From Halogranum rubrum (GTDB taxonomy: Archaea; Halobacteriota; Halobacteria; Halobacteriales; Haloferacaceae), in contig NZ_FOTC01000001.1 in the NCBI RefSeq assembly GCF_900114455.1, positions 769,058 to 833,057 of the forward strand: a stretch of 64,000 nt of DNA, written 5' to 3'. Position 1 is the stretch's first letter. Each line of letters starts with the position of its first letter. Shown here one piece after another: positions 292 through 43,236 of the stretch. The translations under genes and the position numbers were made by a program. Under the pieces are notes generated by a model, which saw nothing but the letters and a program-made list of their open reading frames with translations, was not told the DNA's origin and did no database searches.

Positions 292-627
292 CTACATTTT
301 CGCGACGAACTTCCCGGCGAGCACCTCGTGTGCTCGCCACTCGTGAGTCGCGTGAATTCGTCCCGTTGGGAAGGTTTGAGCTCGGGAGTGAAAGGAGCGC
401 AGCAACTGGAACGACCACAGTTCAGATCTGCTCCAGCTCGCTTCTAACGGACGCGACAGTGACGAGCGGTGCGCAAGTCGCTTGCGACCTCGACACTGAA
501 GGAGATGGTCGAGGCTGACTGTAGAATCTACCATACCGGTTGTTCGGAATGTTCGTTCGAGGGGCATACGCGCCACATCTGGTCCGTCAGCAGCGTTAAT
601 TGACTGTGACGCCTACTGTTGTAGGTT
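292..627. other. Intergenic stretch after tRNA-Val pair
   Basis: Short reading frames here lack haloarchaeal protein character and are not called. The only structure I see is the tRNA-derived module at 365-441. The rest holds the upstream region of the gene starting at 628. Confidence 0.5.
365..441 (+). repeat. tRNA-Val-derived inverted/direct 3'-end module
   Basis: Positions 365-382 resemble the reverse complement of the tRNA-Val T arm and 3' end (GTTGGGAAGGTTTGAGCT). Positions 418-440 resemble the forward 3' end (CAGTTCAGATCTGCTCC at the start), with 5 mismatches in 23 against the genuine tRNA. The same layout, inverted T-arm, about 40 nt of spacer, then forward T-arm, is seen twice after the tRNA-Gly pair at 42421-42641. 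It could be a decayed attachment site or an undescribed tRNA-linked hairpin. Confidence 0.5.
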
Positions 628-41101: not shown

Positions 41102-41950
41102 TCACTCCGTGAGTGTCAGGCAGGCGAGTGAGGCGAACATCGCTTCTTCCGTTCGCACCACCTCGCTGCCCTGTCGCGGAATCGTATTTAGCCAGAGGTC
41201 GAACCCGCTGTCGGGTCCGACGCTCGCCCCACCGGTACTGGTGGGGAGGTCCTCGACGGCGATGTCGAGGATGTCCGGAAGCCCTCGTCCGGGGGATCCG
41301 AAGACGACGGTCATCCCGTCGTCGAGACGCCCGACGAGCGACGACAGTCGCGAGACGGAGAGCTTCTCTCCGTGGCGCGACGTCGCGATGCGTACGCCGG
41401 CGTCGTCCCGGGTGAGCGCTTCGGCGAGGTCCGTGCGTTCGACGACGTACCCCGACGGGGCTTCGTCGACGATTCGCGCGCGGACCGGTTCTCGCGAAGA
41501 GATCCTGACGGTGACGCGCTCTCCCTCGCCCACCGACATTCCGTCGGGGGTGATGAGGGAGATCGGGTGTTGCATTCCGCAATTGACCCGGACGCGGCCT
41601 TCAGGTCCGACCTCGGTCACGATTCCCTGTGTTAACGACCCCGAACCGTCTGATTCGGAGCCGGTCTGTGGGGAGACGCGCAGGGGCGGGAGTACACCCA
41701 CGTACTCGAGTTCGTCGCGAACGTCCCAGGCCTCCTGACGGAGGTAGGGGGGCGTCACGGCGTATTCGAGTACGGTGGTGACGAACTCACCACCCCAGCG
41801 GCTCTCGCCTTCCCGGTCGGGGAAGACGACGAGTCTGTCCGCCCGGAACACCGTCGCCGCGCGGGCGACGTAGCCGAGCTTGCGAGTTGCCTCGCGTTTG
41901 TCCTCGGCTTCCCGGACGAGTGAAGACGGCACGCATATGGTCTGCGTCAT
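41102..41950 (-). CDS. SPOUT-family RNA methyltransferase (putative)
   Basis: The 282-residue protein begins MTQTICVPSSLVREAEDKRE. It has the trefoil-knot pattern with VVFGSPGRGLPDIL near residues 218-231 and NTIPRQGSEVVRTEEAMFAS near the C terminus, which form the SAM pocket. An inserted OB-like domain (about 95-170) is typical of the archaeal DUF171 group. ATG 41950 is taken over 42004 by sequence fit. It precedes uL3 by 4 nt, so it heads the ribosomal operon and may act on rRNA. Confidence 0.82.
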   Translation of the reverse strand: MTQTICVPSSLVREAEDKREATRKLGYVARAATVFRADRLVVFPDREGESRWGGEFVTTVLEYAVTPPYLRQEAWDVRDELEYVGVLPPLRVSPQTGSESDGSGSLTQGIVTEVGPEGRVRVNCGMQHPISLITPDGMSVGEGERVTVRISSREPVRARIVDEAPSGYVVERTDLAEALTRDDAGVRIATSRHGEKLSVSRLSSLVGRLDDGMTVVFGSPGRGLPDILDIAVEDLPTSTGGASVGPDSGFDLWLNTIPRQGSEVVRTEEAMFASLACLTLTE

Positions 41951-42186
41951 GGCCGTCTTTTGGCGTCTCGCCACTAGACTGTAGCGATTGTACCGGAGCC
42001 TCACCTAAAAGAGTAGCGAATGTAATTCGCACTTGTGAGGCCGTCACATGCGCGTTCGTAGGGGTTTCGTGTGACAGACTCTCGTGCGATGAACCCGCAC
42101 GTCGGCGGTCGATTCTAGGTGATTTCGGAACCCTTAATAAGTAATCTCCAGTTAGGATTAGTTGTAGCACGACGCGGTACGGACGT

Positions 42187-42257
42187 GCACTGATAGTGTA
42201 GTGGTATCACGTGACCTTGCCATGGTCACAACCTGGGTTCAAATCCCAGTCAGTGCA
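42187..42257 (+). tRNA. tRNA-Gly (GCC anticodon), copy 1
   Basis: A 71-nt cloverleaf has acceptor GCACTGA/TCAGTGC and anticodon arm GTGACC-TTGCCAT-GGTCAC, giving GCC. The discriminator base is A. An identical copy starts 18 nt after its end. Confidence 0.97.
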
Positions 42258-42275
42258 CTCCAACACCGCTTGCTC

Positions 42276-42346
42276 GCACTGATAGTGTAGTGGTATCACG
42301 TGACCTTGCCATGGTCACAACCTGGGTTCAAATCCCAGTCAGTGCA
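42276..42346 (+). tRNA. tRNA-Gly (GCC anticodon), copy 2
   Basis: This 71-nt gene is identical to the copy at 42187-42257. Two tRNA-derived modules follow it at 42421-42491 and 42567-42641. Confidence 0.97.
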
Positions 42347-42420
42347 TTTTCCTGATTCTAACGCACAAGCGGCGCGTCTCGTCGCGCCGAAACTTCGTGA
42401 ATCAGTGAAAATCTCGACGC

Positions 42421-42491
42421 TGGGATTTGAATCAGGGAACGTCGCGAGCGCAGCGAGCAGAGTGACCGTGGTTCAAATCCCAGTCAGTGCA
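42421..42491 (+). repeat. tRNA-Gly-derived module 1 (inverted T-arm plus 3' end)
   Basis: The left arm TGGGATTTGAA at 42421-42431 is the reverse complement of TTCAAATCCCA at 42472-42482, a perfect 11-bp inverted pair. From 42470 to 42491 the sequence equals the 3' end of the tRNA-Gly gene over 22 nt, T arm through discriminator. The 40 nt between contain GAGCGCAGCGAGCAG. The 74 nt between the tRNA and the module hold nothing recognised. Confidence 0.75.
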
Positions 42492-42566
42492 CTTCTCCGA
42501 ATTTCACACACCGAGCAGCGCGTCTTGGCGCGCTGCGACGTGCTAATGCGGTGTGTGCGGTACGCT

Positions 42567-42641
42567 GGGATTTGAATCAGGGAGGTCGCAGTCTCGCGAA
42601 CGTCAGTGAGCGAGGAAGCGTCCGACCGTGGTTCAAATCCC
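42567..42641 (+). repeat. tRNA-Gly-derived module 2
   Basis: The left arm GGGATTTGAA at 42567-42576 pairs with TTCAAATCCC at 42632-42641, and the left arm is followed by TCAGGGA as in module 1. The internal spacer is longer and the 3' match ends after the T arm. The module is thus a more decayed copy. Nothing further is seen before the gene at 42766. Confidence 0.7.
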
Positions 42642-42765
42642 GTTAGTATCGGTGACTTCTCCGCAGTGACGTCGTTACCAGTTTGTCCCCCGCGCACGCG
42701 ACGCGCGACGCACGCGCAAAGGTCGTAACGCAACCACTTTCGGCGACGACGACGCAAACTCGCCA

Positions 42766-43236
42766 ATGGACTCACAGGCTGTCGCCGACGATTTGCTGTA
42801 CTTCGAGGACCTCGATTCCGACGCCGTCTGGACGTTCGGCGAGGAGACACTGACTCGTGAGGCAATCGTCGACTTCGCCGAGCAGTACGACCCACAACCG
42901 TTCCACGTCGACGACGAGGCTGCCGAGCGGTCGATGTTCGGCGAACTCGTCGCCAGCGGTCTGCACACGTATTGCGTCTGCAACGGGATGGCGACGCGGG
43001 CGTTTTTCCAGGAGGTGGCGTTCCTCTGCGGCCGCGGCCTCGACGACTTCCGGTGGCACCGACCCGTCTACCCCGGAGACACCCTCTCGGGGTGGGTCGA
43101 ACTCGGCGAGATGCGTGTCTCGGAGTCGACTCCAGAGCGAGGCTACGTCGACGTCCACATCACCGGCGTCAACCAACACGACGAGACGGTAATCTCGTGG
43201 ACGGCCTTGGCGCTCGTCGCGCGAAGAGAGGACTGA
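42766..43236 (+). CDS. MaoC-like hydratase
   Basis: The 156-residue hot-dog-fold protein has the (R)-hydratase motif YDPQPFHVD with Asp42 and His47 as the catalytic pair, and a matching SGLHTYCV helix. It likely hydrates enoyl-CoA-type thioesters, or is a structural relative. ATG 42766 fits. It stands alone, convergent with the gene at 43253. Confidence 0.88.
   Translation: MDSQAVADDLLYFEDLDSDAVWTFGEETLTREAIVDFAEQYDPQPFHVDDEAAERSMFGELVASGLHTYCVCNGMATRAFFQEVAFLCGRGLDDFRWHRPVYPGDTLSGWVELGEMRVSESTPERGYVDVHITGVNQHDETVISWTALALVARRED

Follow-up and report, generated by a model that had tools for sequence, protein, structure and literature searches.

RtT-like repeats carrying tRNA tails lie behind haloarchaeal tRNA genes

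Behind a pair of tRNA-Gly(GCC) genes in Halogranum rubrum lie short copies of the tRNA 3′ end, each preceded by a segment of the T-arm in inverted orientation, and the locus raises the question of what kind of element combines the two. Here we describe the locus within the 64,000-nt stretch of DNA that was analysed (the window; contig NZ_FOTC01000001.1, positions 769,058 to 833,057) and compare it with other tRNA loci of the same genome and of other archaea. To our knowledge, such an arrangement is otherwise known from only one E. coli tRNA operon, which carries the RtT repeats.

Repeat units behind the tRNA genes of Halogranum rubrum

The bodies of the two tRNA-Gly(GCC) genes are identical over 71 nt (Table 1), and an earlier note on this DNA had described two modules behind them, each pairing an inverted with a forward piece of the T-arm. 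ARAGORN and a repeat search place the genes and these pieces where the note had them. The inverted arm of module 1 (CTGGGATTTGAATCAGGG, 42420-42437) is 89% complementary to its forward arm (CCGTGGTTCAAATCCCAG, 42466-42483). An identical inverted arm in module 2 (42565-42582) has a forward arm at 42626-42641 as its partner. Module 1 also keeps, as had been claimed, 22 exact nucleotides of the tRNA 3′ end, GGTTCAAATCCCAGTCAGTGCA, which are tRNA positions 52-73; in module 2 only GGTTCAAATCCC (42630-42641) is intact and is followed by a degraded acceptor strand. The view of each module as a single 70-nt hairpin has to be revised, as both are the right halves of larger units that occur in arrays. 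The plan they share starts with a trailer hairpin (H1), continues with a segment complementary to the host T-arm (the anti-T arm) and an inner hairpin that varies, and closes with the copied 3′ end of the tRNA, including its acceptor tail. Compared with dinucleotide shuffles, both modules have much more stable folds (z -5.2 for module 1 and -6.4 for module 2), a check that the note had proposed, and the same holds for the stretches that include H1 (z -4.7 for 42350-42496 and -7.5 for 42496-42645). In two other genomes of the genus the orthologous tRNA pair is followed by a single unit, which resembles unit 1 in one of them (G002) and unit 2 in the other (G001).

Table 1. Coordinates of tRNA genes, repeat units and the integrated element
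Feature	Position	Strand	Basis
tRNA-Gly(GCC) copy 1	42187..42258	+	ARAGORN; RF00005, 66.2 bits
tRNA-Gly(GCC) copy 2, origin of the duplicated tail	42276..42346	+	ARAGORN
Unit 1, H1 trailer hairpin	42347..42412	+	Predicted folds of 42350-42496 and of tRNA plus unit
Unit 1, anti-T arm, complementary to the T-loop and T-stem 3′ strand	42420..42434	+	Inverted repeats; covariation with host tRNA
Unit 1, inner hairpin, type A flanks CAGGGA...GACCGT, GA-rich centre	42435..42469	+	Fold; pair counts of the type A family
Unit 1, tail copy GGTTCAAATCCCAGTCAGTGCA, tRNA-Gly positions 52-73	42470..42491	+	Direct repeat; copy boundaries in 178 units
Unit 2, H1, second type	42492..42564	+	Fold of 42496-42645
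Unit 2, anti-T arm	42565..42579	+	Inverted repeats
Unit 2, inner hairpin, longer type A	42580..42629	+	Fold; relative in genome G001
Unit 2, tail copy, partly decayed	42630..42650	+	Sequence
Decayed unit behind the tandem tRNA-Val(GAC) pair	293..440	+	Left arm 13/14 pairs with its own tail copy
tRNA-Val unit parts	H1 ~298-358; anti-T arm ~366-380; tail copy 419-440	+	
Integrated element (L335; also L241)	contig C14 112600-120400		
Tyrosine integrase of the integrated element	L335:6354-7559		

Elsewhere in this genome, at least 26 of 51 tRNA genes have a tail copy within 400 nt downstream (at least 14 of 18 nt matching), a count that leaves out the 17 tRNAs of a plasmid-like cluster on contig C13; the only upstream tail copies are neighbouring tRNA genes. 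A handful more tRNAs keep parts of units, such as the fragments at tRNA-Ala and tRNA-Tyr. None of the 17 tRNAs of the contig C13 cluster is followed by a tail copy; the cluster (159600-165500, L204) is dense, has divergent T-arms, and is possibly plasmid- or virus-borne. Among the matches to the hairpin model listed for this genome, nine of ten lie within 400 nt downstream of a tRNA and on its strand, and the tenth is displaced from its tRNA by an integrated element. At another locus (L216, contig C8 620400-625300) two tRNA-Ala(GGC) genes lie 2.7 kb apart, and the upstream gene retains an anti-T arm with no tail copy within 400 nt downstream.

Distribution and limits of the units among haloarchaea

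The pattern GGGATTTGAAYCA-N12..42-GGTTCAAATCCC matches 22 of 60 related genomes and none with the reversed control, and 25 of the 28 places found adjoin a detected tRNA, the tRNAs being of ten amino-acid kinds. In 24 of them pattern and tRNA share strand and orientation, and the tRNA is 35-160 nt upstream; at the remaining place (L023) both arms fit the pattern, and the unit reads in the orientation of the tRNA, on the opposite strand. Past the T-arm, matches to this strict pattern nearly always run into the adjoining tRNA's own tail. The earlier note had proposed to check whether modules sit behind tRNA genes whose isoacceptor T-arm they carry, and this is borne out, for the acceptor tail as well. 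Nearly all tRNA kinds are represented, with units directly downstream and in tRNA orientation, and unit ends typically agree with the tail of their own tRNA at 20-23 of 22-23 nt.

A looser hairpin pattern was found in 193 of 295 genomes of the order, representing 66 of 79 genera (reversed control, 0), and a version with a TTCGA T-loop in 109 of 195 genomes (control, 1), with a minority of its matches in coding or other sequence. The covariance model of the core hairpin matched 40 of 247 genomes across the phylum, all 40 within the order (45 of its genomes listed). A named collection yielded 110 matching stretches, and among the matches listed the titles are all of haloarchaeal or archaeal assemblies. 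Tail copies lie behind 18 of 28 tRNAs in a haloarchaeon of another family; a non-haloarchaeon from the same phylum has 31 tRNAs and no tail copy behind any of them. The carriers include some named species of Haloferax and Halorubrum. The note had allowed for random decay should the inverted arm be absent beside tRNAs elsewhere or the copies be confined to this strain without a conserved structure, and the search of haloarchaeal genomes clearly speaks against this.

Some loci show other arrangements. At L041 (contig C51 of genome G030) a unit lies without a detected upstream tRNA, and an acceptor-tail copy alone precedes its H1; the locus looks as though an integrated element had parted the unit from tRNA-Arg. 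A further unit type, at L226 (tRNA-Arg TCT) and L031, has an arm complementary to the acceptor tail, not to the T-loop, and its loop motif is on the opposite strand.

The limits of the tail copy are sharp. Over 178 tRNA-proximal copies, identity with the tRNA is 0.12 at position 51, 0.93 at 52 and 1.00 at 53, and at the other end it is 0.95 at 73 and ~0.5-0.6 at 74-76, then falls to background; the copies were picked by similarity at 54-73, so that only the drops outside that span are informative. The copy thus extends from about position 52 to the discriminator base at 73, across isoacceptors. tRNase Z cuts at the mature tRNA 3′ end, and from its limit at position 73 the unit ends at this same point.

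Covariation, strand bias and turnover of the arrays

Each arm is adapted to its own tRNA. Among 130 units, arm-tail pairing exceeds all 500 shuffles at T-stem positions 63, 64 and 65, and the signal fades from position 66 onward. Unusual T-stems are matched by unusual arms, as at Arg(GCG), Tyr, Met, His and Ser(CGA), and in a test confined to the H. rubrum genome, 18 of 20 arms matched their own tRNA better than they matched the other tRNAs on average (p 0.0002). A previous ungapped best-window swap test with the units of this genome gave little contrast, since TTCRA is common to all tRNAs and genuine tRNA genes nearby had been counted in, and it was replaced by position-specific and cleaned tests. 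The inner hairpin covaries as well: across 44 type A hairpins, pairing is kept in 96% of cells, and double-change cells number 49 versus 11.2 in shuffled data, most of them in the inner stem, which the search pattern leaves unconstrained. We also considered whether arm pairing reaches into the acceptor stem and rejected this, gapped folding being not above shuffled flanks.

The changes are biased toward one strand. Substitutions giving G-U on the tRNA-sense strand occupy 281 of 1355 possible cells, compared with 98 of 1529 for A-C, a difference of ~3-fold per opportunity that is still ~2-fold when position 53 is dropped (151 versus 98); tandem G-A hairpins number 92 on the sense strand versus 4 on the other. 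At 13 Halorubrum tRNA-Leu(CAA) loci, H1, arm, inner hairpin and tail are about as conserved as the tRNA body, and the 5′ flank has diverged; H1 at these loci shows compensatory changes. A direct search of 40 genomes belonging to one genus recovered the tRNA-Leu(CAA) unit in 21. Covariation together with the wobble and G-A strand bias therefore argues that the sense-strand structure is selected. From these sequence comparisons the selected structure is most likely RNA, and the strand bias, which fits RNA and single-stranded DNA alike, does not separate the two. The inverted half, which the note had set apart from ordinary integrase scars, is indeed conserved and covaries with the host tRNA.

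Folding predictions also connect the unit with the body of the tRNA. When a tRNA is folded together with its unit at equilibrium, its 5′ acceptor strand is predicted to prefer the copied acceptor strand in 12 of 15 cases, with H2, the second hairpin of the unit, stacked where the T-arm would be. The predicted pairing of the 5′ acceptor strand with the copy is already high in the intact sequence, averaging 0.75 (n=15), and scrambling the anti-T arm does not raise it. Insulation of the tRNA by H2 through sequestering of the copied tail is unsupported in this calculation, the pairing being independent of the anti-T arm, with the caveat that equilibrium folding ignores co-transcriptional order. 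Substitutions in the copied acceptor strand that keep pairing with the tRNA 5′ strand number 43, against a uniform expectation of 26.7, and transition bias could account for this excess.

Within arrays, the tRNA-proximal copy resembles the tRNA more than the last copy does in 37 cases versus 2, with 25 ties; arrays are not all independent, a problem that is lessened by counting isoacceptors, which gives 19 versus 0. This polarity in tail decay suggests that units are added next to the tRNA or that the nearest copy is corrected most often, and one or the other seems to be taking place. Turnover is clearest at tRNA-Lys(UUU), where arrays in 30 genomes of one genus have 0 to 6 recognisable copies, and 30 units from 18 genomes are built from 7 H1 types and 10 H2 types in 19 combinations that switch at the anti-T sequence. 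Overall, H1 types are locus-specific, with 3 of 38 multi-member clusters spanning isoacceptors, and H2 inner types recur at up to 15 isoacceptors. Because turnover is so quick, a specific regulatory role for any single tRNA-Lys(UUU) unit is doubtful. The earlier note had offered a mobile hairpin or a structured RNA; both parts stand, with a structure under selection and units gained, lost and shuffled, and it is their opposition that does not.

One tRNA-Lys(UUU) array, in genome G139 (L229, L244), has four identical units in a row, past which lie a unit with a tRNA-Arg-like tail (GTCGCGCCCG) and then a hairpin ending in a Lys tail. A possible origin of the Arg-like tail within this array is transfer of a unit between tRNA loci.

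Known tRNA-tail repeats and rival explanations

The closest parallel is E. coli tyrT/tyrV, where the last 19 nt of the tRNA are identical at every repeat copy and GGGGAAGGAT precedes each copy, complementary to the tail's AUCCUUCCCC, and closes a branched fold. The RtT model, RF00391, finds four matches there (133-138 bits), rttR of the rttR/tpr region is annotated as ncRNA, and older literature describes a free RtT RNA released in E. coli. The haloarchaeal units likewise form tandem direct repeats behind a tRNA gene, each with the tRNA 3′ end, and in each the tail copy is closed by a complementary arm into a stable fold. However, the closing arm corresponds to positions 59-68 in E. coli and 52-65 in the haloarchaeal units, and the two sets of repeats share no sequence or covariance match: RF00391 finds nothing in 41900-42800 of the window at E<=5 or in haloarchaeal loci L229, L232, L191 and L271 at E<=1, and in the haloarchaeal loci tested the tRNA alone scores above the Rfam threshold. 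The E. coli case examined is one operon with one tRNA, whereas the haloarchaeal units occur at most tRNA kinds and, unlike RtT, have an extra locus-specific hairpin, shared inner-hairpin types and heterogeneous arrays. As judged from sequence, we regard the units as RtT-like in architecture, do not assign them to the RtT family, and suggest that they represent a new, tRNA-wide variant of the RtT plan. The word "undescribed" in the earlier note is thus too strong for the architecture, whose plan the tyrT/tyrV repeats share; we found no description of the haloarchaeal units in the open-licence literature on tRNA genes, 3′ ends and mobile repeats.

We think it fairly probable that the units are RtT-like tRNA-tail repeats that are cotranscribed with the tRNA, folded, and released as a small RNA. 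The unit would probably be transcribed along with the upstream tRNA, and T-rich stretches directly after some tRNAs may stop transcription ahead of it. The sense strand would fold into H1 and H2, with H2 presenting the copied T-loop and T-stem and then the 3′ acceptor strand to the discriminator base. Pairing in H2 would end with the T-stem and leave the copied acceptor strand free, and this strand may either pair with the tRNA 5′ acceptor strand or be cut by tRNase Z. Release of the unit could then yield a small RNA whose 3′ end is tRNA-like, as with RtT RNA in E. coli. At the DNA level, we predict that most gains take place beside the tRNA and that the repeated T-arm sequence is where units are lost, amplified and recombined.

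Two other groups of haloarchaeal elements resemble the units in part. The t-elements of Haloferax volcanii are tRNA-like structures upstream of 5S rRNA that serve in 5S rRNA processing by tRNase Z (Holzle 2008 and 2012, cited in PMC4326828). The units similarly offer a T-arm/acceptor-like element where tRNase Z could cut, but what they copy is limited to the 3′ part of the tRNA next to them, capped by a hairpin. In the work by Holzle et al. in 2012, tRNase Z reportedly failed to cleave other tRNA-like elements of Haloferax in vitro, which counts against the processing proposed for the units. Haloarchaeal small mobile repeats, MITEs and PATEs are short, non-coding and palindrome-rich (PMC3119063), as are the units, which are also repeated; the units, however, are tied to tRNA genes and not scattered over the genome.

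Much of the array behaviour would also suit DNA cassettes comparable to integron cassettes or to CRISPR/casposon insertions, in which the T-arm is the target, the anti-T/T hairpin is a sense-strand recombination site, and a putative recombinase inserts units next to the tRNA and duplicates its tail. The strong polarity of decay (37:2), the heterogeneous arrays in which each unit has the tail of the same tRNA, the 19 combinations of H1 and H2 types switching at the anti-T sequence, the inner types common to up to 15 isoacceptors, and the Arg-like tail inside a Lys array all speak for such a system. Like attC, the unit is an imperfect hairpin with a conserved outer stem, a variable middle and strand-specific folding, and like integron arrays, those described here have a fixed adjoining site, the newest-looking unit proximal, and parts that are mixed and matched. 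The structure of the units covaries and is strand-biased. The arrays differ from those of integrons in that the units are ~70-160 nt and made of hairpins, and the outer stem tracks the neighbouring tRNA. Covariation of the whole T-stem and the tails maintained at the 13 Halorubrum tRNA-Leu(CAA) loci both suggest selection on a product and not on a recombination site alone; the polarity could equally arise by gene conversion between the tRNA and its nearest copy, and the strand bias cannot tell RNA from single-stranded DNA. We consider the cassette explanation unlikely.

Integrases that target tRNA genes classically leave behind direct copies of tRNA 3′ ends, and the units resemble att duplications in carrying such a copy downstream on the same strand. 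Integrases of this kind are common in Halobacteria (PMC8371274), and in H. rubrum tRNA-Lys(CTT) is separated from its displaced unit by a real integrated element, ~7.3 kb long, that encodes a tyrosine integrase (PF00589, PF02899) along with methyladenine glycosylase-like and HFX_2341/Csa3-like proteins. Yet the units are very unlikely to be scars of plasmids or viruses that integrated at tRNA 3′ ends and later lost their middles, an explanation that is largely refuted. In the real element the att copy begins at ~position 59 and the repeat unit lies outside, whereas the unit copies have limits of ~52-73 whatever the tRNA; a typical unit has no intervening element, and the 178 proximal copies do not show the integrase-set limits, with an element or remnant between tRNA and copy, that mark an attachment scar. 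Scars also leave the inverted anti-T arm, the arm covariation and the repeated unit types unexplained. A viral origin of the units was rejected, the searches of viral contigs giving 0 and 1 matches; on the single matching contig the unit follows a host-type tRNA, tRNA-Glu, and the att copy of another tRNA begins in the anticodon loop.

The hairpins might instead be transcription terminators or trailer stabilisers whose T-arm copies are by-products of trailer duplication: they are stable and sit directly behind tRNA genes, H1 is locus-specific like an ordinary trailer, and transcription in Haloferax volcanii can be ended by a hairpin (PMC7237163). A terminator needs neither a T-arm complement nor a conserved copy of the acceptor strand that runs to the discriminator base, about half of the tRNAs have no units, and up to six tail copies lie behind one tRNA; a scan of bacterial type found no terminator-like site on the tRNA strand at the tRNA-Gly locus. 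We regard this role as quite improbable. Neutral tandem duplications in decay would account for the decay of distal units and for loci such as tRNA-Ala and tRNA-Tyr of this genome that are fragments, but covariation, sense-strand bias, tRNA-like conservation at the 13 Halorubrum loci, and units in most sampled genera of the order refute neutral decay as a general account and make it exceedingly improbable.

It is also conceivable, although we think it improbable in its entirety, that halobacterial tRNA genes are the fixed sites of a directional cassette system, in which a putative recombinase recognises the T-arm and its folded inverted copy, inserts fresh structured units beside the tRNA with the tRNA 3′ end restored, and shuffles parts among loci, and in which units are kept because their RNA is processed as a tRNA tail. 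If this were true, every tRNA gene would carry its own evolving array.

RtT repeats had looked like an oddity of one operon, and the same plan is now found at about half of the tRNA genes of two haloarchaeal genomes, with the pairing arm adapted to each tRNA, which makes tRNA-tail repeats a general kind of element. The arrays are a clear case of non-coding arrays with a proximal-new, distal-old order and combinatorial exchange, and they offer many natural variants for working out what tRNA-tail repeats do. The Haloferax and Halorubrum carriers are tractable hosts in which to ask whether tRNA transcripts also give rise to a further structured RNA or to a different 3′ end for the tRNA.
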